Origin: Daphnia pulex
Lineage: Eukaryota > Arthropoda > Branchiopoda > Diplostraca > Daphniidae
Assembly (NCBI RefSeq): GCF_021134715.1
Contig: NC_060023.1
Location: 10,416,001-10,480,000 of the forward strand
DNA length: 64,000 nucleotides
Direction: 5' to 3'
Below the pieces are notes generated by a model that saw nothing but the letters and a program-made list of their open reading frames with translations, searched no databases and was not told the origin of the DNA. Position numbers and translations under genes: made by a program. Below, piece by piece: positions 16,063 to 57,881 of this stretch; the stretch's first letter is position 1; each line of letters starts with the position of its first letter.

Positions 16063-16063
16063 T

Positions 16064-17960: not shown

Positions 17961-18080
17961 TAAGATCTAATTGATGTTTCACTATGACATTTATGTACAT
18001 TCCAAATTTCCAATAACAGATTTTAAAAATCAAAAAATTTGTTCATATATTTTTACAGCTTATAGTTTAATGTAAGTAAG

Positions 18081-18203
18081 GCGATTTCCACTTTCCGGAA
18101 TTCGAATTTTCAGGCGAATCGAACATCGAAGAAATATTTTTTCACGAAATAACAAATTACGACTGCGAAAATTATCCCAATTTGATGTTGCACGTTGGAA
18201 AGA
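18081..18203 (-). pseudogene. Retinol-saturase exon-1 stub at the array's left edge
   Basis: Only the exon-1 piece is left here, corresponding to 26120-26242. It carries the same 7-bp duplication after the membrane anchor that shifts the frame in all array copies. The remaining exons are cut off by the array boundary. The upstream region to about 18590 parallels 15070-15470, the promoter side of the intact gene. Confidence 0.8.
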
Positions 18204-19137
18204 ATAATTGTCTGAATGAGTATAATTGTCTGCATGCGTCGGCTGTTGTGGATCACTTGCAACTAACTTAAAAAATTGTGATTGGAAATATTTACACTTT
18301 CTTGCTTCAATACCAGTTTTTGTCCAAAGGGGTTTGTTGGCATCATTCTGGAGTAAAATCACTTTAACAGGAGATGGTGTTCAATTTCCTTTTTATGCTT
18401 AAAATGTCATTTTTATGTAGTTGAACTGCGTTTGAAAGGAAAAGATATTCTTGAACGAATTGGTATTCATTTTCACTAAATAGTCGTCAGAAACTGGAAA
18501 TAGTTGTATTATACAGGACGCAGCGCGTTTTCTGTTTCCCAATATAGAAATTCCTCACTGTAAGCAATTTGCAGTCAATATTAGTCTCTATTTCACATGG
18601 GACATGAATATAAAATCATATTTGAATGCGCTTCGATTTCTCTCTAGGGATGTAGGGTACCTCGGGTACAAATTGGTGCCGCATTCTCGCCCAAATTAAG
18701 TCCTATAATACTATTTTGTTCGATTTTGTTTCAATTAAAAAAAAGGTAACGCGCTTGAGATCAAATTTATGTTTCACTCTGACATTTATGTACATTCCAA
18801 ATCTCCAATAGTTGAATAAAAAAACCGAAAATGTGTTCATAAATTTTTACAACTTTAAAAACTAAAATCTCTTAGGCTATAATTTGCGCAAAAATTGAAT
18901 AAAAAGAAAAAAAATTAGGAGATGACCGCCCAATGTAGAAGAAATTTCATGACTTTTAGCCAATTGCTTACGTGTAGCCTCCGTTTAGTTTAACTATTTT
19001 CGGAAACCGTACGATAATTAAGACAAACACTGTGGTTTCAAGACAGCATTTGCCACCAATTGCCAATTGCCGATTGCCGAAAAGTCTTCTCATCTTTTAT
19101 CATCATCATGTCTAATAACACGAGCCCGAGTGAGAAA

Positions 19138-19224
19138 GTAGTTATGCTTCCCATGAGAGTCGAACACAAGTGCCGTGTCATTCTGTGACAATTCACGAAG
19201 ACTTAACTGACTCACCCACCCGAC
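19138..19224 (-). tRNA. tRNA-like relic, unit A
   Basis: The minus strand reads GTGGGTGAGTCAGTTAAG (A-box-like) and TGTTCGACTCTC (B-box-like), related to 17554-17642. The 3' end CATAACTAC no longer pairs with the 5' end, so it is degenerate. Confidence 0.35.
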
Positions 19225-20206
19225 TTAATGTAGTACCATAAAAAGGCAAATTTTGTTGGTATTAGAAGATGATTGGCAGCTGTTTACATACTTATTTCAA
19301 AATTTAAAGTTCATTATTATCGTTTGTTGATTGATTGCAGGGCTCATAGTATTGCTTTAAAGGTGTATAGGCGCCGCCCACCGACTTTCAGACAACCACC
19401 TACAATAACGCATGTCGCACTAGCTTTAAGGGTTTTACTTTTCTAACATAATTAAGTTTTAAGTGTATTTAATTATAGCTTTTCAAAATATCGATTCACC
19501 ATTTTCTACAGTTGTCAATCATCATGACATGCTCGCCGTCGTATATAAAGACAAAATCACAAGTAAAATTAATCTAAAAAAATTTAAATAAATAAACGAA
19601 AGAAAAATTATTCTTTCGACATAGCCATTTTTTAAACATTTCTATGCTCCTATTGGCTAGCGTATAATTTCTCTGTAAGATTGGGACTAATATACCATTT
19701 GTCATAGTTAGGGAAACGTTTTAAAAGAGATTATTTGAATTTGAATGATTTACCAAATTTGGTTGAATCTCGGTTACCATAGAAACGAAGCAGACAAAAA
19801 CCATTTCATTTTCAAAACGGTTAAAGAACCCTTAGTCCTGACCTGACCGTCCTGACATTTCTCTGACACACAAATAAAAAAAAATTATTTCTGGGTTTTA
19901 ACATAGTTCTAAATAAATTTCTTAAAATTCAGTCAATTCCTATCCTTGTGGTTCAGTTTTCAAAATTGTTTTTTAAATCTTACAGGTCTGTGATTATCGA
20001 AGACTCGAATCCATCACCATCTATCCTTTTTTTTCGTGTTTGCTACCACCCTATTAGTAATTTTTTATTATGTTAAAATGTTTTTATTTTCCCTTAAACT
20101 CCAATAGCTCTAAAACAAAAACAGTGAAACAAAACAAGTAAGCAACGGATAAATTGCTAAATAATGAACAATTTGGCAACGGTTAAAATTTAAAATTCAA
20201 ATTCAG

Positions 20207-20220
20207 CCACCAGGGGGACT
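20207..20220 (+). promoter_or_regulatory. CTCF-like motif, unit A
   Basis: CCACCAGGGGGACT agrees with the CTCF core CCASYAGRKGGCRS except near its 3' end. It lies about 600 bases upstream of the ankyrin start, near the first leader exon. Motif match only. Confidence 0.3.
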
Positions 20221-20830: not shown

Positions 20831-22429
20831 ATGAGTTCTAAAAGGAAAGCTGATGAAGATGTGACACCTGAATGTCATGATCATGGGAATCCCCCTAAGA
20901 AAAGGAAGAATGATGTTGATTCTCTTCTGCTTGAAGTTGAAAACCAGAATGTGGCTTACTTGAAGTATTTGGTTGAACAAGGAACTGGCAACTTCCCGTT
21001 GAGTGAACAGTGGAGATTAGTATTCATTCCTGCCCTATCTGACACCACTATTTCAGACCAGATCTTTCATATCCTCAAGAAGAAGTACCCAGACATCGAC
21101 CTCATGAAAAAAGAAGAGAAAACAAAAAATCCAGATTGTATGATTCTACCACAGGATGCTGATACAGAGCAGCTCATTGAAGTACTGGAGCTGGTCGGCG
21201 CTGCGTGTGTTTTTTATGGGAACGCAAAAGATCGAAGATACGGCTGGAGCTTCTGGTATAAAGCCACGAATCTGCGAGAAGGCAATGCCATTCCGAAGTC
21301 TACTTTTCTTCAATCTGAAAACCTAAAACTTGCTATGAGGAAAAAACTTGAATTCCAAACTGTTCAAGAATTGGAAGATTTGTTACGGCAGAGGCGAACG
21401 CACTGGGCGACTCAAGCAATCTTCACTTCTCTACGTATTTCGAAGAAGTGTGACTGCTATCAGAAAAGATTCGTTGTCTACAATTTGTTCAAATTCGCTC
21501 TTCAAGGATGGGGGGACCGCAATGTCCCTCGGCCCCGCGCTTTCGCCATATCCCTCACCCTTTTTGAGCTCTTCGGTAAAACAAAATTTTTTGACGAACT
21601 AGTGAAAAATGAAACGAACTTGGAAGATGTGGTCCACTCAACGTTCACCGAATTCTTCAACACCCTGAGGGACCCAGTCAAGAATCAAACAGAACTGGCT
21701 GCAGTATTGACATACGAAAATTTGATGACTTCTCTGGTTTTCTCTTTCGTATACCAGGTGAAAGTTCACGATGACGCTCGAAATGATCAAATCAAAACCA
21801 AAGATTATACGATCAAATCAAAAGCCGACAAGCTTGAAGAAATTTCACAGCTGATTCTTCTTATTCTCAAACTGCTGGTGTCAATTCCGAAATCGAAGAG
21901 TGAAAGCAAGCGATTGAAGATTCAGCTAGAAGTGTACATCAACATCTTTGAACTCAAGCGGGTATCTCAAAAACCGAACCTCTTGCTTAGAGTATGCACG
22001 TCGCACCAAGGAACACCCAACGAGTTCAAGCTGATCAAGTTGTTGCTGAAAGCAGGAGCGGATCCCAACGCTGTAGATCAACAACGCTGCAGCCCTCTTC
22101 ATCTGCTGGCAGACTGTGAACATTTCTCCTCTCGTATGTGGGACGATCCTTCGTATTCTACTCGTGCTGAAAACTTCACTTCGATCGTTCGACTTATCTT
22201 GCATGAAAGATTTCATGACGAACAAGTTAATTTAAGTGGCCAATCAGCATTGGAGCGTATTCAAGCTCTTCTTTCGCGGTATCCAAATGCCGAATTAAGC
22301 CGACTGGTAGTCAATTTCTCGCAGGGTGTTCGTCCGTTATCTTGCATCGCAGCGAAAGAAGCTCGAAGGAATCAACTCCCCTGTGAAGGGTTACCTATGA
22401 CCGTTCAGTCTATGGTTTTGCAGCACTAG
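20831..22429 (+). CDS. Ankyrin-repeat protein with BC-box-like tail, copy A (532 aa)
   Basis: Single coding exon. The N-terminus has two basic clusters, KRK (4-6) and KKRK (23-26), in a bipartite nuclear-signal arrangement. It is followed by a long helical region with no family I recognise. Near 399-430 a clear ankyrin repeat appears (LIKLLLKAGADPNA then SPLHLLA). A second, weaker repeat spans about 440-482. The tail has RPLSCIAAKEARR (501-513), resembling the BC box (S/T/P)LxxxCxxx-hydrophobic of ankyrin/SOCS and Fem1-type substrate adaptors, with Ala in the Cys position. A nuclear ubiquitin-ligase adaptor role is inference. AATAAA occurs at 22544. The ATG follows leader exons and an AG acceptor at 20782. 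This copy has a distinct N-terminus and an intact tail of 24 residues beyond the stop point of copies B-D. Confidence 0.85.
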   Translation: MSSKRKADEDVTPECHDHGNPPKKRKNDVDSLLLEVENQNVAYLKYLVEQGTGNFPLSEQWRLVFIPALSDTTISDQIFHILKKKYPDIDLMKKEEKTKNPDCMILPQDADTEQLIEVLELVGAACVFYGNAKDRRYGWSFWYKATNLREGNAIPKSTFLQSENLKLAMRKKLEFQTVQELEDLLRQRRTHWATQAIFTSLRISKKCDCYQKRFVVYNLFKFALQGWGDRNVPRPRAFAISLTLFELFGKTKFFDELVKNETNLEDVVHSTFTEFFNTLRDPVKNQTELAAVLTYENLMTSLVFSFVYQVKVHDDARNDQIKTKDYTIKSKADKLEEISQLILLILKLLVSIPKSKSESKRLKIQLEVYINIFELKRVSQKPNLLLRVCTSHQGTPNEFKLIKLLLKAGADPNAVDQQRCSPLHLLADCEHFSSRMWDDPSYSTRAENFTSIVRLILHERFHDEQVNLSGQSALERIQALLSRYPNAELSRLVVNFSQGVRPLSCIAAKEARRNQLPCEGLPMTVQSMVLQH

Positions 22430-23229: not shown

Positions 23230-25683
23230 AGCACATTGATAAAGTGAGATTTACCTCATCACTAGTGAATGCTGATACCAAGAGGCTACTGGGGTTGTTG
23301 ATTGAAGATGTCCGATTCACAAGAGATATTGCAGTGTTAACAGCAAGACATCACTTCAAGCCACTGTTCCAAACCCAGTTGAAACAAATAGAGTTAATCT
23401 GCTTGAAAAAATTTTACCCATTCTGACATCATTTGTTCAGGTAGGTGGAAATGTTAGTTTTGAACCATGTGATCAAATAAATTAAACCTCACTTTTTAAT
23501 TGTTAGTTTATGTGTGTCTCCATAAGCAATGTGACTATAGTAGCCCAGTTGAACAACAACAAGTTGGTCCATGCTTCTGTTAACAATCTGAGTTTAGACG
23601 GAAGCATTTTACCACGCTCACAGATATTGCACTCTGTTGTCTGATAGATGTGTTTTCATGTCAACTTCTTCAGACCGTAGCTTCTACTGAAAGGTATTTT
23701 TCTTTGTAGTACTACCAAATCACCGTAACTGATTTAACACTATATCAATCTAGAGATGGAAAGGTCAACCAGCAATCACAATTTGCCGAATCACGAACGA
23801 AAACTTGGAGCCGTGTTTAGCAGAATTTTCAGTTGGAGTTCAAACAGAAATTCTCGTTGACCCAGTTTTACCGGCCATCACGGTAAGTGTAATTGAATAA
23901 TTATTGTGTTGCGTATTCTTAATTGTTCAAATTAAGGTCATCCAAGAACTAGTTTCGAGTTGAATTTGCCACGCTGCGCATTACTATTCGACGGCCATTC
24001 CATCATTGAAGCTGAAGGATTAAATTGGAAGCTAGCTGATAACGATCTTGATCTCAAACAAGAAAGAATCAGTTTCGATTGCGAGGTAACTATTTTCGTA
24101 AAATGTGATTTTTCCTTCGTGAAAACGGTTATTTAACTTTGATTACATCACATAATAAAGGCTGCCACAATCCACAAACAAATGTGGGCTGGTCAGCATT
24201 GTCCATTTGTGCGTTTGCTTCCCCTACCGTTACCAGTTTTCCGAAGCCTGCCAACAGGAGATGGTGAGCGTCTTCAAGTGGCTAAAATCGCTGCACAAAA
24301 AGCCTCGGCTTCCTGGACAAATAGAGCCACTTTATCGTGACGTTCGTCTGTCAGTTGCACTATTTTCTATGGTGCTCTGTGACGACCCATTTGAGGTCAA
24401 GCTCCGTGATAACTACGAACTGCGCGAAGATTAATTTCGTGAGAGTCTCAAACGTAAGCGTATGTTGAACGCTAAAATTGAAGAACTCCGAAGAACGCAC
24501 CCACTTCTGACGCAAGTAAGTCTCCTAATAAACCTGCACAAGTTTCAGCTAATAACAGTTTCGTTCATAGGGTAAAATTGATGAGCTTTATACAAATCTG
24601 GGAGGCCGAAATGTTGAGATATTTGTTCAGCGAGCGCAACGCATGTACGAGGCGAGGCCGATGAGAACGGCTCTGTTCCGATGGGAAATGGAGCAAGTTG
24701 ATTTGATGGCTTTAGCCGATCCATCTTTCCACGGTTACACCAATGTCGTCCGCAATATCCAGGAGATGGATCCTGACAGCTCGTGGCCTGATGAAGAAAT
24801 AGATTTTATTACGCTGTGGTGTCGTGCAGTCCGCGCAACATGTCATCGATGGCGATGTTTACTTCGAGATTTCCCGCAACCGCTTCTCGACATTCACGAA
24901 TTGCTGCTCTTTGGTCGACTAGCCGGAGCTGAACAACAGTCTTCCTGGCGAGCTCGACGAACCTGTACTGTTTCTGTAGCGGCCCCCTGGAGTGATGTAC
25001 AGATCGAACGTGGAATGAACCAACTGAAATTTTACCATGATTTTTCTTGTGGCGCTGAGAGCTGGCGTCTGGCCTACGGTGCTTGTTGGGAGCCCGTGAT
25101 AGCCCAATGCAATCTAGCATGGGATTTCGTTTCACCTCCTTCAAAAGGTAAAAATTAATTAGAAATAATAACAATAATAATAAACATTAAATTTACGTTT
25201 TCCCTACGACTAGGATCCTAGTCCAGCTTTGCCTTTTTGGGATAAAATTCTTCTACTCCTCCACGGTCGAGTTTACGTTGTCTGTTCAACAATTAACTCT
25301 ACTACTCCATACATCACTTTATTGATCCTTATAATACCACTGAAGAGATGGAGCTAACTTGGACCGATTTGGCAATGGATTGGACTAATGCCAATTTTAT
25401 CCTAAAAGGTATTGAATAGTTTCGTTCTTATTCATCGACTTTCAAAATTAATTCATTCGAGTTGTTGCGTTTAGGCGAATTCAACGTCTATGTCAGAACG
25501 GCTTCCAAATACGATGATTGTCGTCTTTTGCATTTACCTCGACTGAAGCTGACCATCGGGCTGACCTGGCATTGTTTGGCCGATCCCAACGAACATCTCG
25601 CTGATACAACCCTGTGCTCCCGATCGAATTCCAGAATACTCGAGCAATCAGGAGCACGATTCAACGTCCGAGTTCGAGTGGGG
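23230..25683 (+). pseudogene. BLTP2: hobbit/BLTP2 internal fragment, broken, unit A
   Basis: Internal exons of the bridge-like lipid transfer protein family (fly hobbit, human BLTP2/KIAA0100), which forms long lipid conduits at ER-plasma-membrane contacts. Recognisable blocks are NLGGRNVEIFVQRAQRMYE, CWEPVIAQCNL and VYVRTASKYDDCRLLHL, across several introns with GT/AG borders. It is a fragment: there is no N- or C-terminal part. A 1-nt deletion near 23390 shifts the frame in an otherwise fitting exon. An in-frame TAA at 24432-24434 follows NYELRED where the reading continues FRESLKRKRML. The right end stops at GAGTGGGG near 25683, at the junction with retinol-saturase sequence. It cannot make the protein. 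Confidence 0.85.
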
Positions 25684-26242
25684 CAAATGGAAATTTCCTA
25701 CGTAGTGAATTTCCACGTCAAATTCGTAACCCTCGTCTCTGAAGGTATGACAGGCCCCACCAAATTTGTAATGTTTTTCGAGAACTAGGACTTTCATTCC
25801 AGCTTTGCTGAGAAGGGCTGCTGCGGTCATTCCTACATTACATAAGACATTATTAAACATACACTAACGTATTAATTTAACGGGGAAAAGGATCAATCGC
25901 ACCTCCTATTCCCGAACCGGTTAGAATTGCGTCCCATTTCTTCTCTGTCGCCAGCTGCGTGGTGAAAGCTGTAAAATCACCAGAAACAAATCAAATTAAA
26001 ATACAGACCCATTTTTACGAGTAAGGTGGATTTAAAGAGACTTCTTTTCATGACTTGATTTCGTTTGGTATGATCAGTTTCTAATGGAGTCACTGGCCTT
26101 TTCGTATCTTTAGCAGAAGGCGATTTCCACTTTCCGGAATTCGAATTTTCAGGCGAATCGAACATCGAAGAAATATTTTTTCACGAAATAACAAATTACG
26201 ACTGCGAAAATTATCCCAATTTGATGTTGCACGTTGGAAAGA
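25684..26242 (-). pseudogene. Retinol-saturase 5' fragment (exons 1-3, partial), A/B junction
   Basis: The minus strand carries exon 1, exon 2 (SGIGG region near 25905-25970) and part of exon 3 ([22 protein letters not shown], then [13 protein letters not shown]). Exon 3 ends at 25684, where it meets hobbit sequence tail to tail. Lesions: the start codon region is replaced, and a 7-bp duplication after KKYFFD shifts the frame. The upstream box reads TTTAAG instead of TATAAG. Homology to the intact gene's promoter side continues to about 26620. Confidence 0.88.
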
Positions 26243-27176
26243 ATAATTGTCTGAATGAGTATAATTGTCTGCATGCGTCGGCTGTTGTGGATCACTTGCA
26301 ACTAACTTAAAAAATTATGATTGGAAATATTTACACTTTCTTGCTTCAATACCAGTTTTTGTCCAAAGGGGTTTGTTGGCATCATTCTGGAGTAAAATCA
26401 CTTTAACAGGAGATGGTGTTCAATTTCCTTTTTATGCTTAAAATGTCATTTTTATGTAGTTGAACTGCGTTTGAAAGGAAAAGATATTCTTGAACGAATT
26501 GGTATTCATTTTCACTAAATAGTCGTCAGAAACTGGAAATAGTTGTATTATACAGGACGCAGCGCGTTTTCTGTTTCCCAATATAGAAATTCCTCACTGT
26601 AAGCAATTTGCAGTCAATATTAGTCTCTATTTCACATGGGACATGAATATAAAATCATATTTGAATGCGCTTCGATTTCTCTCTAGGGATGTAGGGTACC
26701 TCGGGTACAAATTGGTGCCGCATTCTCGCCCAAATTAAGTCCTATAATACTATTTTGTTCGATTTTGTTTCAATTAAAAAAAAGGTAACGCGCTTGAGAT
26801 CAAATTTATGTTTCACTCTGACATTTATGTACATTCCAAATCTCCAATAGTTGAATAAAAAAACCGAAAATGTGTTCATAAATTTTTACAACTTTAAAAA
26901 CTAAAATCTCTTAGGCTATAATTTGCGCAAAAATTGAATAAAAAGAAAAAAAATTAGGAGATGACCGCCCAATGTAGAAGAAATTTCATGACTTTTAGCC
27001 AATTGCTTACGTGTAGCCTCCGTTTAGTTTAACTATTTTCGGAAACCGTACGATAATTAAGACAAACACTGTGGTTTCAAGACAGCATTTGCCACCAATT
27101 GCCAATTGCCGATTGCCGAAAAGTCTTCTCATCTTTTATCATCATCATGTCTAATAACACGAGCCCGAGTGAGAAA

Positions 27177-27263
27177 GTAGTTATGCTTCCCATGAGAGTC
27201 GAACACAAGTGCCGTGTCATTCTGTGACAATTCACGAAGACTTAACTGACTCACCCACCCGAC
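27177..27263 (-). tRNA. tRNA-like relic, unit B
   Basis: Same sequence as the relic at 19138-19224, with degenerate acceptor stem. Confidence 0.35.
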
Positions 27264-28119
27264 TTAATGTAGTACCATAAAAAGGCAAATTTTGTTGGTA
27301 TTAGGAGATGATTGGCAGCTGTTTACATACTTATTTCAAAATTTAAAGTTCATTATTATCGTTTGTTGATTGATTGCAGGGCACATAGTATTGCTTGCGA
27401 CACACCATTTTCTACAGTTGTCAATCATCATGACATGCTCGCCGTCGTATATAAAGACAAAATCACAAGTAAAATTAATCTAAAAAAATTTAAATAAATA
27501 AACCAAAGAAAAATTATTCTTTCGACTTAGCCATTTTTTAAACATTTCTATGCTCCTATTGGCTAGCGTATAACTTCTCTGTAAGATTGGGACTAATATA
27601 CCATTTGTCATAGTTAGGGAAACGTTTTAAAAGAGATTATTTGAATTTGAATGATTTACAAAATTTGGTTGAATCTCGGTTACCATAGAAACGAAGCAGA
27701 CAAAAACCATTTCATTTTCAAAACGGTTAAAGAACCCCCTTAGTCCTGACCTGACCGTCCTGACATTTCTCTGACACACAAATAAAAAAAAATTATTTCT
27801 GGGTTTTAACATAGTTCTAAATAAATTTCTTAAAATTCAGTCAATTCCTATCCTTGTGGTTCAGTTTTCAAAATTGTTTTTTAAATCTTACAGGTCTGTG
27901 ATTATCGAAGAATCGAATCCATCACCATCTATCCTTTTTTTTCGTGTTTGCTACCACCCTATTAGTAATTTTTTATTATGTTAAAATGTTTTTATTTTCC
28001 CTTAAACTCCAATAGCTCTGAAACAAAAACAGTGAAACAAAACAAGTAAACAAAACAACGGATAAATTGCTAAATAATGAACAATTTGGCAACGGTTAAA
28101 ATTTAAAATTCAAATTCAG

Positions 28120-28133
28120 CCACCAGGGGGACT
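28120..28133 (+). promoter_or_regulatory. CTCF-like motif, unit B
   Basis: CCACCAGGGGGACT, unchanged from unit A, upstream of ankyrin copy B. Confidence 0.3.
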
Positions 28134-28363
28134 TCCGCTGTATTGCAGCCCAGCATCTCAAGGACGAGGAAAAAACCGTTAGAAAGTTTCTCGTACTTGT
28201 GCCAGGCAGACATCGTCAATCAGAGCTCAAGAATCTTAGTTGAAATTTCGTAAATTTTAACTTTTTCTACTTCAGAATTGTTTTCTTCTTACTTCAACAC
28301 GGTAAGCCTCTATTTTCTAATTGTTTAGTACAATTACTAACCTAGTTTTGCTAAAATTGGTAG

Positions 28364-28626
28364 AAGAATCAAGTTCATCTCCCACCATTTTGAAGACTGC
28401 TTCCAATTTATCTTCCACATAACTGGGATTTGTTCCTACTGAATATTTGTTTCTTCTAACATCAACAAGGTAAACCTTTTTTCTTTCCTAATTTTGTATA
28501 AAAAAATAACTTGGTTTTTGTAAAATTGTTTAGGAGATCAAATACATTTCCCACGGTATTCGAAGACTGCTTCCAATTGATCTTCCATCTAGGTGGCATT
28601 TGTTTTATTTTTCTTCAAATTAGCAG
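28364..28626 (+). other. Duplicated leader exons, unit B
   Basis: Mini-exons 28364-28469 and 28534-28626 with conserved borders. Slightly shorter than in unit A. Confidence 0.45.
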
Positions 28627-28732
28627 GTATTTATCACATGACATTCTTCTTTATATGTGTACTAAAATTTTAAATTTATCAGAACAGTACTGACTACAGA
28701 GACCGTCTGACCAACCCAAAGCACGGAAGAAC

Positions 28733-35078: not shown

Positions 35079-35165
35079 GTAGTTATGCTTCCCATGAGAG
35101 TCGAACACAAGTGCCGTGTCATTCTGTGACAATTCACGAAGACTTAACTGACTCACCCACCCGAC
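35079..35165 (-). tRNA. tRNA-like relic, unit C
   Basis: Copy of the relic at 27177-27263. Confidence 0.35.
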
Positions 35166-36528: not shown

Positions 36529-36634
36529 GTATTTATCACATGACATTCTTCTTTATATGTGTACTAAAATTTTAAATTTATCAGAACAGTACTGACTACA
36601 GAGACCGTCTGACCAACCCAAAGCACGGAAGAAC

Positions 36635-41487: not shown

Positions 41488-42046
41488 CAAATGGAAATTT
41501 CCTACGTAGTGAATTTCCACGTCAAATTCGTAACCCTCGTCTCTGAAGGTATGACAGGCCCCACCAAATTTGTAATGTTTTTCGAGAACTAGGACTTTCA
41601 TTCCAGCTTTGCTGAGAAGGGCTGCTGCGGTCATTCCTACATTACATAAGACATTATTAAACATACACTAACGTATTAATTTAACGGGGAAAAGGATCAA
41701 TCGCACCTCCTATTCCCGAACCGGTTAGAATTGCGTCCCATTTCTTCTCTGTCGCCAGCTGCGTGGTGAAAGCTGTAAAATCACCAGAAACAAATCAAAT
41801 TAAAATACAGACCCATTTTTACGAGTAAGGTGGATTTAAAGAGACTTCTTTTCATGACTTGATTTCGTTTGGTATGATCAGTTTCTAATGGAGTCACTGG
41901 CCTTTTCGTATCTTTAGCAGAAGGCGATTTCCACTTTCCGGAATTCGAATTTTCAGGCGAATCGAACATCGAAGAAATATTTTTTCACGAAATAACAAAT
42001 TACGACTGCGAAAATTATCCCAATTTGATGTTGCACGTTGGAAAGA
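41488..42046 (-). pseudogene. Retinol-saturase 5' fragment, C/D junction
   Basis: Copy of the fragment at 33586-34144, with the same lesions. Confidence 0.87.
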
Positions 42047-42980
42047 ATAATTGTCTGAATGAGTATAATTGTCTGCATGCGTCGGCTGTTGTGGATCACT
42101 TGCAACTAACTTAAAAAATTATGATTGGAAATATTTACACTTTCTTGCTTCAATACCAGTTTTTGTCCAAAGGGGTTTGTTGGCATCATTCTGGAGTAAA
42201 ATCACTTTAACAGGAGATGGTGTTCAATTTCCTTTTTATGCTTAAAATGTCATTTTTATGTAGTTGAACTGCGTTTGAAAGGAAAAGATATTCTTGAACG
42301 AATTGGTATTCATTTTCACTAAATAGTCGTCAGAAACTGGAAATAGTTGTATTATACAGGACGCAGCGCGTTTTCTGTTTCCCAATATAGAAATTCCTCA
42401 CTGTAAGCAATTTGCAGTCAATATTAGTCTCTATTTCACATGGGACATGAATATAAAATCATATTTGAATGCGCTTCGATTTCTCTCTAGGGATGTAGGG
42501 TACCTCGGGTACAAATTGGTGCCGCATTCTCGCCCAAATTAAGTCCTATAATACTATTTTGTTCGATTTTGTTTCAATTAAAAAAAAGGTAACGCGCTTG
42601 AGATCAAATTTATGTTTCACTCTGACATTTATGTACATTCCAAATCTCCAATAGTTGAATAAAAAAACCGAAAATGTGTTCATAAATTTTTACAACTTTA
42701 AAAACTAAAATCTCTTAGGCTATAATTTGCGCAAAAATTGAATAAAAAGAAAAAAAATTAGGAGATGACCGCCCAATGTAGAAGAAATTTCATGACTTTT
42801 AGCCAATTGCTTACGTGTAGCCTCCGTTTAGTTTAACTATTTTCGGAAACCGTACGATAATTAAGACAAACACTGTGGTTTCAAGACAGCATTTGCCACC
42901 AATTGCCAATTGCCGATTGCCGAAAAGTCTTCTCATCTTTTATCATCATCATGTCTAATAACACGAGCCCGAGTGAGAAA

Positions 42981-43067
42981 GTAGTTATGCTTCCCATGAG
43001 AGTCGAACACAAGTGCCGTGTCATTCTGTGACAATTCACGAAGACTTAACTGACTCACCCACCCGAC
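42981..43067 (-). tRNA. tRNA-like relic, unit D
   Basis: Copy of the relic at 27177-27263. Confidence 0.35.
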
Positions 43068-43923
43068 TTAATGTAGTACCATAAAAAGGCAAATTTTGTT
43101 GGTATTAGGAGATGATTGGCAGCTGTTTACATACTTATTTCAAAATTTAAAGTTCATTATTATCGTTTGTTGATTGATTGCAGGGCACATAGTATTGCTT
43201 GCGACACACCATTTTCTACAGTTGTCAATCATCATGACATGCTCGCCGTCGTATATAAAGACAAAATCACAAGTAAAATTAATCTAAAAAAATTTAAATA
43301 AATAAACCAAAGAAAAATTATTCTTTCGACTTAGCCATTTTTTAAACATTTCTATGCTCCTATTGGCTAGCGTATAACTTCTCTGTAAGATTGGGACTAA
43401 TATACCATTTGTCATAGTTAGGGAAACGTTTTAAAAGAGATTATTTGAATTTGAATGATTTACAAAATTTGGTTGAATCTCGGTTACCATAGAAACGAAG
43501 CAGACAAAAACCATTTCATTTTCAAAACGGTTAAAGAACCCCCTTAGTCCTGACCTGACCGTCCTGACATTTCTCTGACACACAAATAAAAAAAAATTAT
43601 TTCTGGGTTTTAACATAGTTCTAAATAAATTTCTTAAAATTCAGTCAATTCCTATCCTTGTGGTTCAGTTTTCAAAATTGTTTTTTAAATCTTACAGGTC
43701 TGTGATTATCGAAGAATCGAATCCATCACCATCTATCCTTTTTTTTCGTGTTTGCTACCACCCTATTAGTAATTTTTTATTATGTTAAAATGTTTTTATT
43801 TTCCCTTAAACTCCAATAGCTCTGAAACAAAAACAGTGAAACAAAACAAGTAAACAAAACAACGGATAAATTGCTAAATAATGAACAATTTGGCAACGGT
43901 TAAAATTTAAAATTCAAATTCAG

Positions 43924-43937
43924 CCACCAGGGGGACT
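43924..43937 (+). promoter_or_regulatory. CTCF-like motif, unit D
   Basis: CCACCAGGGGGACT upstream of ankyrin copy D. Confidence 0.3.
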
Positions 43938-44167
43938 TCCGCTGTATTGCAGCCCAGCATCTCAAGGACGAGGAAAAAACCGTTAGAAAGTTTCTCGTAC
44001 TTGTGCCAGGCAGACATCGTCAATCAGAGCTCAAGAATCTTAGTTGAAATTTCGTAAATTTTAACTTTTTCTACTTCAGAATTGTTTTCTTCTTACTTCA
44101 ACACGGTAAGCCTCTATTTTCTAATTGTTTAGTACAATTACTAACCTAGTTTTGCTAAAATTGGTAG

Positions 44168-44430
44168 AAGAATCAAGTTCATCTCCCACCATTTTGAAGA
44201 CTGCTTCCAATTTATCTTCCACATAACTGGGATTTGTTCCTACTGAATATTTGTTTCTTCTAACATCAACAAGGTAAACCTTTTTTCTTTCCTAATTTTG
44301 TATAAAAAAATAACTTGGTTTTTGTAAAATTGTTTAGGAGATCAAATACATTTCCCACGGTATTCGAAGACTGCTTCCAATTGATCTTCCATCTAGGTGG
44401 CATTTGTTTTATTTTTCTTCAAATTAGCAG
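44168..44430 (+). other. Duplicated leader exons, unit D
   Basis: Same mini-exon pair as in units B and C. Confidence 0.45.
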
Positions 44431-44536
44431 GTATTTATCACATGACATTCTTCTTTATATGTGTACTAAAATTTTAAATTTATCAGAACAGTACTGACTA
44501 CAGAGACCGTCTGACCAACCCAAAGCACGGAAGAAC

Positions 44537-46063
44537 ATGGGTTCTAAAAGGAAAGCTGGTGATGTGACACCTGAATGTCAGGAACATAGTAATCCCGCTA
44601 AGAAAAGGAAGAATGATGTTGAATCTCTTCTGCTTGAAGTTGAAAACCAGAATGTGGCCTACTGGAAGTATTTTGTCGAAGAATCTACTGGCAACTTCCC
44701 GTTGAGTGAACAGTGGAGATTAGTATTCATTCCTGCCCTATCTGACACCACTATTTCAGACCAGATCTTTCATATCCTCAAGAAGAAGTACCCAGACATC
44801 GACCTCATGAAAAAAGAAGAGAAAACAAAAAATCCAGATTGTATGATTCTACCACAGGACGCTGATACAGAGCAGCTCATTGAAGTACTGGAGCTGGTCG
44901 GCGCTGCGTGTGTTTTTTATGGGAACGCAAAAGATCGAAGATACGGCTGGAGCTTCTGGTATAAAGCCACGAATCTGCGAGAAGGCAATGCCATTCCGAA
45001 GTCTACTTTTCTTCAATCTGAAAACCTAAAACTTGCTATGAGGAAAAAACTTGAATTCCAAACTGTTCAAGAATTGGAAGATTTGTTACGGCAGAGGCGA
45101 ACGCACTGGGCGACTCAAGCAATCTTCACTTCTCTACGTATTTCGAAGAAGTGTGACTGCTATCAGAAAAGATTCGTTGTCTACAATTTGTTCAAATTCG
45201 CTCTTCAAGGATGGGGGGACCGCAATGTCCCTCGGCCCCGCGCTTTCGCCATATCCCTCACCCTTTTTGAGCTCTTCGGTAAAACAAAATTTTTGGACGA
45301 ACTAGTGAAAAATGAAACGAACTTGGAAGATGTGGTCCACTCAACGTTCACCGAATTCTTCAACACCCTGAGGGACCCAGTCAAGAATCAAACAGAACTG
45401 GCTGCAGTATTGACATACGAAAATTTGATGACTTCTCTGGTTTTCTCTTTCGTATACCAGGTGAAAGTTCACGATGACGCTCGAAATGATCAAATCAAAA
45501 TCAAAGATTATACGATCAAATCAAAAGCCGACAAGCTTGAAGAAATTTCACAGCTGATTCTTGTTATTCTCAAACTGCTGGTGTCAATTCCGAAATCGAA
45601 GAGTGAAAGCAAGCGATTGAAGAGTCAGCTAGAAGTATACATCAACATCTTTGAACTCAAGCGGGTATCTCAAAAACCGAACCTCTTGCTTAGAGTATGC
45701 ACGTCGCACCAAGGAACACCCAACGAGTTCAAGCTGATCAAGTTGTTGCTGAAAGCAGGAGCGGATCCCAACGCTGTAGATCAACAACGCTGCAGCCCTC
45801 TTCATCTGCTGGCAGACTGCGAAGTTGAATCCTCTCACATGTGGGACGATCCTTCGTATTCTACTCGTGCTGAAAACTTCATATCGACCGTTCGACTTAT
45901 CTTGCATGACAAATTCCACGAAGAACAAGTTAATCTCAGTGGCCAATCAGCATTGGAGTGTATTCAAAATCTTCTTTCGCGGTATCCAAATGACGAATTA
46001 AGCCGACTGGTAGTCAATTTCTCGCAGGGTGTTCGTCCGTTATCTTGCATCGCAGCGAATTAA
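44537..46063 (+). CDS. Ankyrin-repeat protein, copy D (508 aa, shortened tail)
   Basis: Predicted protein identical to copies B and C. The following spacer resembles unit A rather than B and C near 46840, so the homogenised block ends between the gene and that point. Confidence 0.83.
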   Translation: MGSKRKAGDVTPECQEHSNPAKKRKNDVESLLLEVENQNVAYWKYFVEESTGNFPLSEQWRLVFIPALSDTTISDQIFHILKKKYPDIDLMKKEEKTKNPDCMILPQDADTEQLIEVLELVGAACVFYGNAKDRRYGWSFWYKATNLREGNAIPKSTFLQSENLKLAMRKKLEFQTVQELEDLLRQRRTHWATQAIFTSLRISKKCDCYQKRFVVYNLFKFALQGWGDRNVPRPRAFAISLTLFELFGKTKFLDELVKNETNLEDVVHSTFTEFFNTLRDPVKNQTELAAVLTYENLMTSLVFSFVYQVKVHDDARNDQIKIKDYTIKSKADKLEEISQLILVILKLLVSIPKSKSESKRLKSQLEVYINIFELKRVSQKPNLLLRVCTSHQGTPNEFKLIKLLLKAGADPNAVDQQRCSPLHLLADCEVESSHMWDDPSYSTRAENFISTVRLILHDKFHEEQVNLSGQSALECIQNLLSRYPNDELSRLVVNFSQGVRPLSCIAAN

Positions 46064-46923
46064 GCTTAGCTTGAAAGAATCAACTCCCCTGTGACGCTTC
46101 AGTCTATGGTTTTGCAGCACTAGTTCGTTTCGATACTGAATTAAATTGTTTTCCTTTTTGGCGTCTACACTAACTTCCGAAATTTGTCGTATTGTTACTT
46201 GTCTTTCGTTTGCATCGAATAACAACCTTTGCTTGTGAATAAATAGAACGCGTTAATAACTTATTATCTGATATTTTAGCTCTATTTCTTGCATTTTGCA
46301 CTTGGTTTTCAACTTTTTTCACAAATCTCATAAGTCGAAAAGAACATGCTATGAAGAAGAAGAACTTAGGTTAAAGTAATTTTTCATAATCCTTAAAACT
46401 TAAAAGTAAAAATCCATTACTTCTTTCAATTAATTTGAAGTCACTCTCCTTTCCGCTCCTATCATCTTCGATTTCAATTCGATTGTTCGATTCGAATTAA
46501 TTCGAGTGGGAGGTTGGAACATTCCGTACCTTTGGCAACGCAACGCAATTAGGCCTGTTTAAATACAGACGAAGTGACGGACTGACTTTAGTAAATAAAC
46601 AAAATGGGTAGCCTGCAATAGTTTATTGTTTATTCTGTTTCTTGTCATTATTTTTTTTTTCCATTTTAAACGGTAAAAAGAGTAATTTTTGGTTTAACAA
46701 AATTGTAATGCTAAATTTTCTTTTTCTGTAGTCTTCTACTGTATGCTCTCAACTTAATTTTCAAGCGTTAAACTAAAAATCAAAGTCCGTCTAGGTCTAA
46801 TCGCCCTACTTCAACCTTCTGTACAAAATACTTATTTAAATTTAAATTTCACTGTTGTACTTGTAAGTATTCACTGTTTATTTTTGCACAGTCTTTATGT
46901 TATTCATAACTTTTTCCCTTTAC

Positions 46924-49383
46924 AGCACATTGATAAAGTGAGATTTACCTCATCACTAGTGAATGCTGATACCAAGAGGCTACTGGGGTTGTTGATTGAA
47001 GATGTCCGATTCACAAGAGATATTGCAGTGTTAACAGCAAGACATCACTTCAAGCCACTGTTCCAAACCCAGTTGAAACAAATAGAGTTAATCTGCTTGA
47101 AAAAATTTTACCCATTCTGACATCATTTGTTCAGGTAGGTGGAAATGTTAGTTTTGAACCATGTGATCAAATAAATTAAACCTCACTTTTTAATTGTTAG
47201 TTTATGTGTGTCTCCATAAGCAATGTGACTATAGTAGCCCAGTTGAACAACAACAAGTTGGTCCATGCTTCTGTTAACAATCTGAGTTTAGACGGAAGCA
47301 TTTTACCACGCTCACAGATATTGCACTCTGTTGTCTGATAGATGTGTTTTCATGTCAACTTCTTCAGACCGTAGCTTCTACTGAAAGGTATTTTTCTTTG
47401 TAGTACTACCAAATCACCGTAACTGATTTAACACTATATCAATCTAGAGATGGAAAGGTCAACCAGCAATCACAATTTGCCGAATCACGAACGAAAACTT
47501 GGAGCCGTGTTTAGCAGAATTTTCAGTTGGAGTTCAAACAGAAATTCTCGTTGACCCAGTTTTACCGGCCATCACGGTAAGTGTAATTGAATAATTATTG
47601 TGTTGCGTATTCTTAATTGTTCAAATTAAGGTCATCCAAGAACTAGTTTCGAGTTGAATTTGCCACGCTGCGCATTACTATTCGACGGCCATTCCATCAT
47701 TGAAGCTGAAGGATTAAATTGGAAGCTAGCTGATAACGATCTTGATCTCAAACAAGAAAGAATCAGTTTCGATTGCGAGGTAACTATTTTCGTAAAATGT
47801 GATTTTTCCTTCGTGAAAACGGTTATTTAACTTTGATTACATCACATAATAAAGGCTGCCACAATCCACAAACAAATGTGGGCTGGTCAGCATTGTCCAT
47901 TTGTGCGTTTGCTTCCCCTACCGTTACCAGTTTTCCGAAGCCTGCCAACAGGAGATGGTGAGCGTCTTCAAGTGGCTAAAATCGCTGCACAAAAAGCCTC
48001 GGCTTCCTGGACAAATAGAGCCACTTTATCGTGACGTTCGTCTGTCAGTTGCACTATTTTCTATGGTGCTCTGTGACGACCCATTTGAGGTCAAGCTCCG
48101 TGATAACTACGAACTGCGCGAAGATTAATTTCGTGAGAGTCTCAAACGTAAGCGTATGTTGAACGCTAAAATTGAAGAACTCCGAAGAACGCACCCACTT
48201 CTGACGCAAGTAAGTCTCCTAATAAACCTGCACAAGTTTCAGCTAATAACAGTTTCGTTCATAGGGTAAAATTGATGAGCTTTATACAAATCTGGGAGGC
48301 CGAAATGTTGAGATATTTGTTCAGCGAGCGCAACGCATGTACGAGGCGAGGCCGATGAGAACGGCTCTGTTCCGATGGGAAATGGAGCAAGTTGATTTGA
48401 TGGCTTTAGCCGATCCATCTTTCCACGGTTACACCAATGTCGTCCGCAATATCCAGGAGATGGATCCTGACAGCTCGTGGCCTGATGAAGAAATAGATTT
48501 TATTACGCTGTGGTGTCGTGCAGTCCGCGCAACATGTCATCGATGGCGATGTTTACTTCGAGATTTCCCGCAACCGCTTCTCGACATTCACGAATTGCTG
48601 CTCTTTGGTCGACTAGCCGGAGCTGAACAACAGTCTTCCTGGCGAGCTCGACGAATCTGTACTGTTTCTGTAGCGGCCCCCTGGAGTGATGTACAGATCG
48701 AACGTGGAATGAACCAACTGAAATTTTACCATGATTTTTCTTGTGGCGCTGAGAGCTGGCGTCTGGCCTACGGTGCTTGTTGGGAGCCCGTGATAGCCCA
48801 ATGCAATCTAGCATGGGATTTCGTTTCACCTCCTTCAAAAGGTAAAAATTAATTAGAAATAATAATAATAATAATAAACATTAAATTTACGTTTTCCCTA
48901 CGACTAGGATCCTAGTCCAGCTTTGCCTTTTTGGGATAAAATTCGTCTACTCCTCCACGGTCCAGTTTACGTTGTCTGTTCAACAATTAACTCTACTACT
49001 CCACACATCACTTGATCCTTATAATTCCACTGAAGAGATGGAGCTAACTTGGACCGATTTGGCAATGGATTGGACTAATGCCAATTTTATCCTAAAAGGT
49101 ATTGAATAGTTTCGTTCTTATTCATCGACTTTCAAAATTAATTCATTCGAGTTGTTGCGTTTAGGCGAATTCAACGTCTATGTCAGGACGGCTTCCAAAT
49201 ACGATGATTGTCGTCTTTTGCATTTACCTCGACTGAAGCTGACCATCGGGCTGACCTGGCATTGTTTGGCCGATCCCAACGAACATCTCGCTGATACAGC
49301 CCTGTGCTCCCGATCGAATTCCAGAATACTCGAGCAATCAGGAGCACGATTTAACGTCCGAGTTCGAGTGGGGCAAATGGAAA
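46924..49383 (+). pseudogene. BLTP2: hobbit/BLTP2 fragment, unit D
   Basis: Same exons and lesions (TAA at 48126-48128). A few private changes: RRICTV for RRTCTV near 48654, a longer AAT run near 48862, and substitutions near 48940-49030. It is the last hobbit copy; none follows ankyrin copy E. Confidence 0.85.
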
Positions 49384-49932
49384 TTTCCTACGTAGTGAAT
49401 TGCCACTTCAAATTCATAACCCTCGTCTCTAAAGGTGTGACAGGCCCCACCAAATTTGTAATGTTTTTCGAGAACTAGGACTTTCATTCCAGCTTTGCTG
49501 AGAAGGGTTGCTGCGGTCATTCCTACATTACATAAGACATTATTAAACATGCTGACGTATATTAATTTAACGGGGAAAAGGATTAATCGCACCTCCTATT
49601 CCCGAACCGATAACAATTGCGTCCCAATTCTTCTCTGTCGCCAGCTGCTTAGTGAAGGCTGTAAAATCACCAGAAACAAATCAAATTAAAATACAGACCC
49701 ATTTTTACGAGTAAGGTGGATTTAAAGAGACTTCTTTTCATGACTTGATTTCGTTTGGTATGATCAGTTTCTAATGGAGTCACTGGCCTTTTCGTATCTT
49801 TAGCAGAAGGCGATTTCCACTTTCCGGAATTCGAATTTTCAGGCGAATCGAACATCGAAGAAATATTTTTTCACGAAATAACAAATTACGACTGCGAAAA
49901 TTATCCCAATTTGATGTTGCACGTTGGAAAGA
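49384..49932 (-). pseudogene. Retinol-saturase 5' fragment, D/E junction (mosaic)
   Basis: Same fragment and 7-bp duplication. Exon 2 (about 49600-49660) reads ACCGATAACAATTGCG and GCTGCTTAGTGAAGG as in the intact gene at 14733-14790. Copies A-C have ACCGGTTAGAATTGCG and GCTGCGTGGTGAAAG. It is thus a mosaic between array and intact-gene types. Confidence 0.85.
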
Positions 49933-50866
49933 ATAATTGTCTGAATGAGTATAATTGTCTGCATGCGTCGGCTGTTGTGGATCACTTGCAACTAACTTAA
50001 AAAATTATGATTGGAAATATTTACACTTTCTTGCTTCAATACCAGTTTTTGTCCAAAGGGGTTTGTTGGCATCATTCTGGAGTAAAATCACTTTAACAGG
50101 AGATGGTGTTCAATTTCCTTTTTATGCTTAAAATGTCATTTTTATGTAGTTGAACTGCGTTTGAAAGGAAAAGATATTCTTGAACGAATTGGTATTCATT
50201 TTCACTAAATAGTCGTCAGAAACTGGAAATAGTTGTATTATACAGGACGCAGCGCGTTTTCTGTTTCCCAATATAGAAATTCCTCACTGTAAGCAATTTG
50301 CAGTCAATATTAGTCTCTATTTCACATGGGACATGAATATAAAATCATATTTGAATGCGCTTCGATTTCTCTCTAGGGATGTAGGGTACCTCGGGTACAA
50401 ATTGGTGCCGCATTCTCGCCCAAATTAAGTCCTATAATACTATTTTGTTCGATTTTGTTTCAATTAAAAAAAAGGTAACGCGCTTGAGATCAAATTTATG
50501 TTTCACTCTGACATTTATGTACATTCCAAATCTCCAATAGTTGAATAAAAAAACCGAAAATGTGTTCATAAATTTTTACAACTTTAAAAACTAAAATCTC
50601 TTAGGCTATAATTTGCGCAAAAATTGAATAAAAAGAAAAAAAATTAGGAGATGACCGCCCAATGTAGAAGAAATTTCATGACTTTTAGCCAATTGCTTAC
50701 GTGTAGCCTCCGTTTAGTTTAACTATTTTCGGAAACCGTACGATAATTAAGACAAACACTGTGGTTTCAAGACAGCATTTGCCACCAATTGCCAATTGCC
50801 GATTGCCGAAAAGTCTTCTCATCTTTTATCATCATCATGTCTAATAACACGAGCCCGAGTGAGAAA

Positions 50867-50953
50867 GTAGTTATGCTTCCCATGAGAGTCGAACACAAGT
50901 GCCGTGTCATTCTGTGACAATTCACGAAGACTTAACTGACTCACCCACCCGAC
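50867..50953 (-). tRNA. tRNA-like relic, unit E
   Basis: Copy of the relic at 27177-27263. Confidence 0.35.
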
Positions 50954-51807
50954 TTAATGTAGTACCATAAAAAGGCAAATTTTGTTGGTATTAGGAGATG
51001 ATTGGCAGCTGTTTACATACTTATTTCAAAATTTAAAGTTCATTATTATCGTTTGTTGATTGATTGCAGGGCACATAGTATTGCTTGCGACACACCATTT
51101 TCTACAGTTGTCAATCATCATGACATGCTCGCCGTCGTATATAAAGACAAAATCACAAGTAAAATTAATCTAAAAAAATTTAAATAAATAAACCAAAGAA
51201 AAATTATTCTTTCGACATAGCCATTTTTTAAACATTTCTATGCTCCTATTGGCTAGCGTATAATTTCTCTGTAAGATTGGGACTAATATACCATTTGTCA
51301 TAGTTAGGGAAACGTTTTAAAAGAGATTATTTGAATTTGAATGATTTACAAAATTTGGTTGAATCTCGGTTACCATAGAAACGAAGCAGACAAAAACCAT
51401 TTCATTTTCAAAACGGTTAAAGAACCCTTAGTCCTGACCTGACCGTCCTGACATTTCTCTGACACACAAATAAAAATAAATTATTTCTGGGTTTTAACAT
51501 AGTTCTAAATAAATTTCTTAATATTCAGTCAATTCCTATCCTTGTGGTTCAGTTTTCAAAATTGTTTTTCAAATCTTACAGGTCTGTGATGATCGAAGAC
51601 TCGAATCCATCACCATCTATCCTTTTTTTTCGTGTTTGCTACCACCCTATTAGTAATTTTTTATTATGTTAAAATGTTTTTATTTTCCCTTAAACTCCAA
51701 TAGCTCTGAAACAAAAACAGTGAAACAAAACAAGTAAACAAAACAACGGATAAATTGCTAAATAATGAACAATTTGGCAACGGTTAAAATTTAAAATTCA
51801 AATTCAG

Positions 51808-51821
51808 CCACCAGGGGGACT
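51808..51821 (+). promoter_or_regulatory. CTCF-like motif, unit E
   Basis: CCACCAGGGGGACT is preserved although the following bases (51826-51850) differ from the other units. Confidence 0.3.
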
Positions 51822-52058
51822 TCAGCTGTATTGGCATTGGCAACAGCAGCTCAAGGACGAGGAAAAAACCGTTAGAAAGTTTCTCGTACTTGTGCCAGGC
51901 AGACATCGTCAATCAGAGCTCAAGAATCTTAGTTGAAATCTCGTAAAATTTAAACTTTTTCTACTTCAGAATTGTTTTCTTCTTACTTCAAACACGGTAA
52001 GCCTCTATTTTCTAATTGTTTAGTACAATTACTTACCTAGTTTTGCAAAAATTGGTAG

Positions 52059-52320
52059 AAGAATCAAGTTCATCTCCCACCATTTTGAAGACTGCTTCCA
52101 ATTTATCTTCCACATAGCTGGGATTTGTTCCTACTGAATGTTTGTTTCTTCTAACGACAACAAGGTAAACCTTTTTTTCCCTAATTTTGTATAAATAATA
52201 ACTTGGTTTTTGTAAATTTTTTTAGGAGAATCAAGTACATTTCCCACGGTATTCGAAGACTGCTTCCAATTGATCTTCCATCTAGCTGGCATTTGTTTTA
52301 TTATTCCAGCAAATCAGCAG
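52059..52320 (+). other. Duplicated leader exons, unit E
   Basis: Mini-exon pair retained with conserved borders at TTGGTAG/AAGAATC, AACAAG/GTAAAC and CAGCAG/GTATTT. Confidence 0.45.
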
Positions 52321-52424
52321 GTATTTATCGCATGAAATTCTTCCTTGTATGTGTACTAAAATTTTAAATTTCTCAGAACAGTACTGACTACAGACCGTCT
52401 GACCAACCCAAAGCACGGAAGAAG

Positions 52425-54014
52425 ATGGGTTCTAAAAGGAAAGCTGATGATGTGACACCTGAATGTCAGGAACATAGTAATCCCGCTAAGAAAAGGAAGA
52501 ATGATGTTGAATCTCTTCTGCTTGAAGTTGAAAACCAGAATGTGGCTTTCTTGAAGTATTTGGTTGAACAAGGAACTGGCAACTTCCCGTTGAGTGAACA
52601 GTGGAGATTAGTATTCATTCCTGCCCTATCTGACACCACTATTTCAGACCAGATCTTTCATATCCTCAAGAAGAAGTACCCAGACATCGACCTCATGAAA
52701 AAGAAAGAGAAGACAAAAAACCCTGATTGTATGATTCTACCACGCGACGCTGATACAGAGCAGCTCATTGAAGTACTGGAGCTGGTCGGCGCTGCGTGTG
52801 TTTTTTATGGGAATTTGAGTGATCGAAAATACGGCTGGAGCTGCTGGTATAAAGCCACGAATCTGCGAGAAGGCAATGCCATTCCGAAGTCTACTTTTCT
52901 TCAATCTGAAAACCTAAAACTTGCTATGAGGAAAAAACTTGAATTCCATACTGTTCAACAATTGGAAAAATTGCTTCGGCAGAGGCGAACGCACTGGTCG
53001 ACTCAAGCAATCTTCACTTGTCTACGTATTTCGAAGAAGTGTGACTGCTATCCGAATAGATTCATCGTCTACAATTTCTTCAAATCCGCTCTTCAAGGAT
53101 GGGGGGACAGAAACTTGCCCCGTCAGCGGGCTTTCGCCCTATCCATTCACCTGTTTGAGCTCTTTGGAGAAACAGAGTTTTTGGACACTTTAGTAGAAAA
53201 TGAAAAGAACTTGGAAGATGTTCCACAGTCAACTTTAACCGAATTCTTCAACACCCTGAGGGACCCACAACGGATTCAAGAACTGGCTACAGTATTGACA
53301 TTTGACCGTTTGATGACTTCTCTGGTTTTCTCTTTCGTATACCAGGTGAAAGTTCACAAACACGCTCGAAATGATCAAATCAAAATCAAAGATTATACGA
53401 TCAAATCAAAAGCCGACAAGCTTGAAGAAATTTCACAGCTGATTCTTGTTATTCTCAAACTGATGGTGTCAATTCCGATAACGAAGACTCAGAGAAGACA
53501 ACTGAAGAATAAGCTAGCGCTCTACATAAACATCTATGAATTCAAGCGGGTATCTCAAAAACCAAACCTCTTGCTTAGAGTATGCACGTCTCACCAAGGA
53601 ACACCCAACGAGTTCAAGCTGATCAAGTTGTTGCTGAAAGCAGGAGCGGATCCCAATGCTGTAGATCAACAACGCTGCAGCCCTCTTCATCTGCTGGCAA
53701 AAAGTGAACATCTCTCCTCTCATTCGTGGAAGAATCCTTCTTACTCTACTCGTGCTGAAAACTTCACTGCCATCGTTCGAGTTATCTTTGATGGAAGATT
53801 CCATCAAGATCAAGTCAATCTAAGTGGCCAATCAGCATTGGAGTGTCTAAAACCTCTTTCGAGCTATCCACATGCTGAGCTAAGCCGACTGGTAGGCAAT
53901 TTCTCGCAGGGTGTTCGTCCGTTATCTTGCATCGCAGCGAAAGAAGTTCGAAGGAATCAACTCCCCTGTGAAGCTTCACCTATGACCGTTCAGTCTATGG
54001 TTTTGCAGCACTAG
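52425..54014 (+). CDS. Ankyrin-repeat protein, copy E (529 aa)
   Basis: Most diverged copy. N-terminus MGSKRKADDVTPECQEHSNP with KKRK near 23. It matches the others closely over about residues 55-105, then differs in patches: HTVQQLEKLLRQ, FKSALQGWGDRNLPRQRAFA, LFELFGETEFLDTLVENEKN and SIPITKTQRRQLKNKL. The ankyrin core KLIKLLLKAGADPNAVDQQR is unchanged. The loop after it is recast (KSEHLSSHSWKNPSYS). The tail PLSCIAAKEVRR is intact and is the best BC-box match of the five, with Val in the last hydrophobic position. The frame is fully open. Confidence 0.85.
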   Translation: MGSKRKADDVTPECQEHSNPAKKRKNDVESLLLEVENQNVAFLKYLVEQGTGNFPLSEQWRLVFIPALSDTTISDQIFHILKKKYPDIDLMKKKEKTKNPDCMILPRDADTEQLIEVLELVGAACVFYGNLSDRKYGWSCWYKATNLREGNAIPKSTFLQSENLKLAMRKKLEFHTVQQLEKLLRQRRTHWSTQAIFTCLRISKKCDCYPNRFIVYNFFKSALQGWGDRNLPRQRAFALSIHLFELFGETEFLDTLVENEKNLEDVPQSTLTEFFNTLRDPQRIQELATVLTFDRLMTSLVFSFVYQVKVHKHARNDQIKIKDYTIKSKADKLEEISQLILVILKLMVSIPITKTQRRQLKNKLALYINIYEFKRVSQKPNLLLRVCTSHQGTPNEFKLIKLLLKAGADPNAVDQQRCSPLHLLAKSEHLSSHSWKNPSYSTRAENFTAIVRVIFDGRFHQDQVNLSGQSALECLKPLSSYPHAELSRLVGNFSQGVRPLSCIAAKEVRRNQLPCEASPMTVQSMVLQH

Positions 54015-54260
54015 TTCGTTTCGATACTGCTGGAGCCTAGAATTGTTTCCCTTTTTGGCATCTACATTTACCATTCCGAAATTTCAAATTTGTCGTATTG
54101 TTACTTGTTTTTCGTTTGCATCGAATAACAACCTTTGCTTGTGAATAAAAAAACGAGTTAATAACTTATTATCTGAAATTTTAGATCTATTTCTTGCACT
54201 TTGTCTTAAACTATTTGAACAAATCTCAAAGTCGAAAATTACATGCCACGAAGAACCTAT

Positions 54261-55540: not shown

Positions 55541-57881
<2,341 letters not shown>

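Follow-up and report, generated by a model that had tools for sequence, protein, structure and literature searches.

How does a tandem array keep one open gene in every unit while the other gene pieces in the unit are broken? The question is raised by a 64-kb stretch of contig C7 of Daphnia pulex (10.416-10.480 Mb, hereafter the window, to which positions without a contig name refer; genome searched, 133,188,837 bases in 13 contigs), in which a block of about 7.9 kb is repeated directly. The first-pass annotation read the open frame as an ankyrin gene, intact in all units and maintained by selection or recent conversion. The structure of the units points to another answer, in which a young array probably arose by unequal homologous exchange between two neighbouring genes resembling FEM1, a family of CUL2 ubiquitin-ligase receptors. 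If the gene itself is the exchange site, every unit may retain a full-length gene although the copies are not individually selected, and the genes in the spacer stay broken.

Structure of the array and its probable origin by unequal exchange

Comparison of the window with itself by BLAST delimits a direct, head-to-tail array from 18078 to about 54255 which holds five gene copies and four spacers, or about 4.6 units. The five open reading frames (ORFs) start at 20831, 28733, 36635, 44537 and 52425, so that the spacings of 7902, 7902, 7902 and 7888 bp given in the first-pass annotation are exact. Its statement that all other gene pieces are broken also holds, as the remaining recognised pieces in the unit are fragments, namely exons of a Hobbit/BLTP2 gene (Pfam PF10344, E 6.7e-47 and 1.1e-11) and the first part of an NAD/FAD-binding oxidoreductase gene. 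A longer Hobbit/BLTP2 copy lies outside the array at C7:8336156-8341029 (PF10344 matches). The features are listed below, where the two flank types are named after relatives of the array genes, L022 at C7:8.32 Mb and L016 at C7:8.41 Mb.

18078..19496, no strand: head of unit A and left array boundary (junction comparison and BLAST self-comparison)
19358-19496, no strand: segment of unit A at the place of 6 bp in the other units (BLAST self-comparison)
20831..22429, plus strand: FEM1-like copy A (532 aa) with the whole C-terminal VHL-type box, an L016-type 5' flank and an L022-type 3' flank
24168..25599, plus strand: Hobbit/FMP27/BLTP2 gene fragments in the spacer of unit A (PF10344 at C7:10440168-10441599), with equivalents in B, C and D
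25648..26116, minus strand: NAD/FAD-binding oxidoreductase fragment at the spacer end (PF13450, E 7.4e-12 for 25648-25863), RETSAT-like by eye
26117..34018, no strand: unit B, 7902 bp
28733..30259, plus strand: FEM1-like copy B, 508 aa, truncated by a 5-bp insertion with a stop within the BC box
34019..41920, no strand: unit C, 7902 bp
36635..38161, plus strand: FEM1-like copy C, protein identical to B, truncated
41921..49806, no strand: unit D, 7886 bp
44537..46063, plus strand: FEM1-like copy D, protein identical to B, truncated
49807..54355, no strand: partial unit E, matched by the other units to 54255 and by the paralogs L016, L010 and L011 to 54355
52425..54014, plus strand: FEM1-like copy E (529 aa) with the whole C-terminal VHL-type box and L016-type flanks on both sides

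Units B and C differ at 1 base in 7,902. Unit D lacks 12 bp of spacer that are found in B and C (A lacks them too) and carries 31 substitutions in its final 1.2 kb, with a gene identical to that of B, and the differences that separate units A and E from B-D lie mainly within or around the gene.

The flanks of the gene are of two origins. At sites where the two types differ, the ratio of L016-like to L022-like bases in the 5' flank is 41:10 in A, 41:9 in each of B-D and 38:14 in E, and in the 3' flank it is 5:25 in each of A-D and 22:9 in E. All five copies thus have an L016-like 5' flank, combined with an L022-like 3' flank in A-D and an L016-like 3' flank in E. Unit B can be mapped in order onto C7:8410642-8411003 (99%), C7:8411005-8413600 (95%), the gene, C7:8322791-8324631 (86%) and C7:8335929-8337632 (96%), where the first segment corresponds to its oxidoreductase equivalent at 33657-34017 and the last to its Hobbit equivalent. 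The junction of unit tail and head seen in the array is also present beside L016, in one alignment of 95% identity over 2,983 columns.

Such an arrangement would be expected if an exchange between an L022-type and an L016-type gene had fallen inside the genes, either in the parental cluster or at the present location. Each added unit would then draw its 5' and 3' flanks from genes of different types and would include the intervening spacer, which would have brought along the broken Hobbit/BLTP2 and oxidoreductase pieces. Because the exchange would occur in the gene, it would rebuild a full-length chimeric gene in each unit, and an open frame would therefore need no special selection. Subsequent exchange and gene conversion could account for the near-identity of B, C and D and for patches in common with paralogs as far as 2 Mb away. 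Measured in 150-column windows, copy A varies patchily between 55% and 100% identity to L016 and between about 85% and 99% identity to L010 and L011, which points to repeated gene conversion. Of the two processes invoked in the first-pass annotation, recent homogenisation is thus borne out by the near-identity of B-D and the patches shared by A and L016, while selection in each unit is neither needed nor shown.

Several observations weigh against this origin. The original left gene should have a 5' flank of L022 type, but that of copy A is of L016 type, so that one must assume loss of the left gene or relocation of the array. At 18078 the array begins abruptly, and no match spans 18077/18078, unlike the junction at 26116/26117. 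Within the ORFs of A-D the diagnostic sites are mixed and no single clean breakpoint is seen, with L016:L022 counts of 8-9:16 at the start, 27:32 in the middle, 11:0 in the ankyrin region and 23-28:15-16 in the 3' part. The parental cluster, moreover, was read only in part (L016, L019-L020, L022, L066 and L070).

Tandem gene arrays can grow by unequal crossing-over and be homogenised by gene conversion, a process known as concerted evolution, and the array is probably of this known type. It shares with such arrays the direct units, the near-identical inner copies, the divergent end copies and the chimeric genes at the exchange point, and it differs in having only about five copies, in that the gene itself is the exchange point and in a spacer that is a patchwork of broken host genes. 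An example of concerted evolution in Daphnia is the rDNA spacer (PMC3036644). At mutation rates of 3.8e-9 to 1e-9 per site, as given in PMC11550904, the single difference between B and C would correspond to about 17,000-63,000 generations, with upper limits of about 79,000-300,000, figures which ignore conversion and are meaningless if the B/C duplication is an assembly artefact. If FEM1-like arrays vary among isolates, Daphnia mutation-accumulation lines could be used to measure the exchange rate directly.

Identity of the gene and truncation of copies B-D

The name ankyrin gene is incomplete. An ankyrin is present near the C-terminus, where Pfam gives weak, sub-threshold matches at about residues 395-432 of the array proteins, but profile alignments to FEM1C and FEM1B identify the gene by sequence as FEM1-like, contained in one open frame. 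A family profile built from ten members in this genome (A2) aligns over residues 103-536 with residues 227-615 of human FEM1C in one stretch (E 1.4e-21). As a point against this assignment, 33 ankyrin or DARPin sequences outscore FEM1C in the same search, because the profile contains the ankyrin repeat. For this reason the middle of a relative, L038, which is free of ankyrins, was also tested, and FEM1C was its sole match (E 0.005; 177,635 PDB sequences, E up to 10). A second profile of 15 C-termini (A4) has its best match in FEM1B 535-627 (E 7.3e-10), and other ankyrins match its first half. A PDB search with copy E alone had ankyrin and designed-ankyrin chains among the matches listed (60 of 301). 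The predicted structure of copy E has a mean predicted local distance difference test score of 41 and was not used.

The array genes share with FEM1A, FEM1B and FEM1C the middle helical/TPR region and the C-terminal ankyrin, to which A and E, as judged by sequence, add the VHL-type box. In FEM1B the N-terminal ankyrins are described as forming the substrate groove, and the BC box and the cullin box are placed at 597-608 and 617-627 (PMC10943247). The array copies differ from FEM1A/B/C in their single open frame, in a start that is rich in lysine and arginine (by eye) and in lacking the N-terminal groove: Pfam finds no N-terminal ankyrins in proteins P0001-P0003 at E up to 1, and the FEM1C alignment starts at 227. 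The genes are therefore named FEM1-like and are not filed as FEM1. More distant relatives in the same genome still have visible N-terminal ankyrin-like sequence (by eye).

Copies B, C and D also lack the cullin box, and the claim that the gene is intact in every unit does not survive. The full C-terminus of the family is found only in A (532 aa) and E (529 aa). The identical 508-aa proteins of B, C and D stop at a 5-bp insertion, 23 residues short of the A terminus, and in the DNA alignment a 14-bp deletion follows further on. Their last residues are PLSCIAA and one more, and the stop, which corresponds to FEM1B 603 (counted on the profile alignment), removes the last 5 of the 12 BC-box positions and the whole cullin box. 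That copy B is simply intact was considered and ruled out by the insertion in the DNA alignment.

For the products of A and E, binding of Elongin C and CUL2 by way of the VHL-type box is predicted, and their targets would be bound by a surface that differs from the N-terminal ankyrin groove of FEM1. No association with CUL2 is predicted for the products of B, C and D, copies that are probably turning into pseudogenes. Among 30 loci with frames read, 22 have the C-terminal box. The frames that lack it are those of B, C, D, L017, L019, L020, L026 and L050, so that its loss is not unique to the array. At L050, a box-like match lies in a separate adjoining frame (C6:6655695-6655823).

Selection, assembly and mobility as alternatives

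A different answer to the opening question is that selection for the gene, through dosage or diversity, keeps a working copy in each unit and drives the amplification. The FEM1-like family has been under purifying selection. The pairwise ratio of nonsynonymous to synonymous change (dN/dS) is below 1 in every finite comparison (range 0.22-0.83), with values of 0.83 for A-B, 0.60 for A-E, 0.54 for A-L010, 0.39 for A-L011 and 0.22 for L010-L011, and an excess of synonymous over nonsynonymous differences (pS > pN) has one-sided P values of 0.32, 0.003, 0.02, 0.0001 and 1e-6, respectively. Every coding indel that separates A, E, L010 and L011 has a length divisible by three, and the kilobase upstream of the same genes holds 7-15 indels per pair that are not. 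This pattern counts against an origin by exchange without selection, and selection may have helped to keep A and E. In a random simulation, a neutral frame stayed open after 154 substitutions with a probability of about 0.002, and the other arrays likewise have a FEM1-like open frame in each unit.

However, a single sequence underlies B, C and D, whose three open frames therefore count once, and that sequence is truncated within a conserved box. Changes private to one copy also look neutral in the array, where nonsynonymous and synonymous private codons number 11:3 in A, 14:4 in B and 45:19 in E, in agreement with a neutral ratio of about 2.7:1. Outside the array, L011 (12:17, P 0.0004) shows constraint and L010 (3:4, P 0.09) lies in the same direction; codons gapped in any of the five copies, and those at which the reference copies disagree, were left out. 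Conversion from intact donors would likewise keep frames open, and it blurs the dN/dS, indel and private-change tests alike. The comparisons among copies point to past constraint on the family, which A and E may still be under, and do not show selection on each array copy. We consider it unlikely that selection per unit built the array, and continue to favour unequal exchange within the gene.

Assembly expansion would mean that fewer units are real and that B, C and possibly D were made by the assembler or by haplotype joining. The single base that separates B from C and the identical genes of B-D fit this explanation, as does the need for reads longer than about 24 kb to span three such units. 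On the other hand, A, D and E carry variants of their own, so that, given a correct local sequence, at least A, one of B and C, D and also E must be separate units, and there is no N in the window by base counts. Expansion by assembly is accordingly rather improbable. It is very improbable that the units are carried by a self-duplicating mobile element. Parts of the unit are indeed found on C3 and C8 besides C7, and the Hobbit piece on C3 shares both of its ends between 2.556 and 7.404-7.432 Mb. Among 12 frames that are not FEM1-like, however, only some of them from the unit, Pfam detected no domain of a transposase or reverse transcriptase, in a survey that included neither an exhaustive scan nor a search for terminal repeats or target-site duplications.

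The wider family and the surroundings of the array

The array points to a large and uneven family of FEM1-like receptors in the water flea. In this genome, open frames of 500 aa or more hold 41 loci with a relationship to P0003 or L042, though not each was compared with FEM1. They comprise 24 of the 84 matches in one search (B, C and D included) and 17 further loci among the 81 matches in another. Left out of the count were C11:3066078 (ankyrin part only), C10:9643044 (internal stop) and, on C12, two 614-aa frames next to loci already counted. Several members are themselves arranged in repeats. At C7:8391263 and 8401723 (L019 and L020, in an array region at C7:8383880-8404971), two copies with equal scores and identical proteins lie 10,460 bp apart, and both lack the C-terminal box. 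On C3, open frames of 727-729 aa at 7400623, 7414309, 7428002 and 7441699 (region 7400623-7443651) are about 13.69 kb apart; the first three score equally and have a Hobbit/BLTP2 fragment nearby, and the last copy differs. A FEM1-like pair at C3:2559206 and 2572960 is about 13.75 kb apart, and both C3 groups, at 2.56 and 7.40-7.44 Mb, carry the Hobbit fragment. At C12:640952-642592 and 653324-654964, equal-scoring FEM1-like matches on opposite strands have the look of an inverted pair.

It is conceivable, but quite improbable, that this large family has been repeatedly amplified in young arrays in which the box-less copies B-D, L019 and L020 are expressed as decoys, binding targets without ubiquitylating them and opposing the complete copies. 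If this were true, a receptor and its antagonist would be spread as a pair by the same recombination. Nematode F-box and MATH-BTB genes are rapidly expanding families of cullin-ligase receptors, and the family described here resembles them in its many substrate-receptor copies, some of them in tandem, and in its uneven constraint, but differs in being FEM1-like and thus related to CUL2. Searches for fem-1, Daphnia and crustacean or arthropod expansions returned no publication on such a family in the titles and abstract starts of the matches listed, where an overlooked description is possible, and the terms fem-1 and ankyrin are absent from the main text of a study of gene families across Daphnia (PMC12102780).

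Immediately upstream of the FEM1-like ORFs, at 28264-28604 and equivalent positions, two adjacent copies of a sequence of about 170 bp (about 74% alike) are found, with related pieces on C3 and C9, which perhaps represent a shared promoter or a small element. In the left flank, a disrupted-looking NAD/FAD oxidoreductase-like gene lies on the minus strand at 12900-15200 (RETSAT-like by eye, with one frame giving a weak Pfam match), and each of the four spacers ends in sequence that is about 79% alike to the DNA at 14481-15471. Cytochrome P450 pieces occur on both sides of the array, at 363-764 and 57301-57645 (PF00067), with further ones by eye, and the split frames look CYP4-like. A GH7 exon is identical to 4xnn_A, a Daphnia pulex protein, at 94 of 101 positions, and such a value (93%) is low for one gene within a single species. 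No match reached Rfam gathering scores in the 64-kb window and ARAGORN found no tRNA there. A ten-base tandem repeat, GATGCAGCCG, is present in 6.9 copies at 5613-5681. Finally, the segments at 15822-17931 and 54699-55648, about 85% alike, flank the array on both sides with their order swapped.

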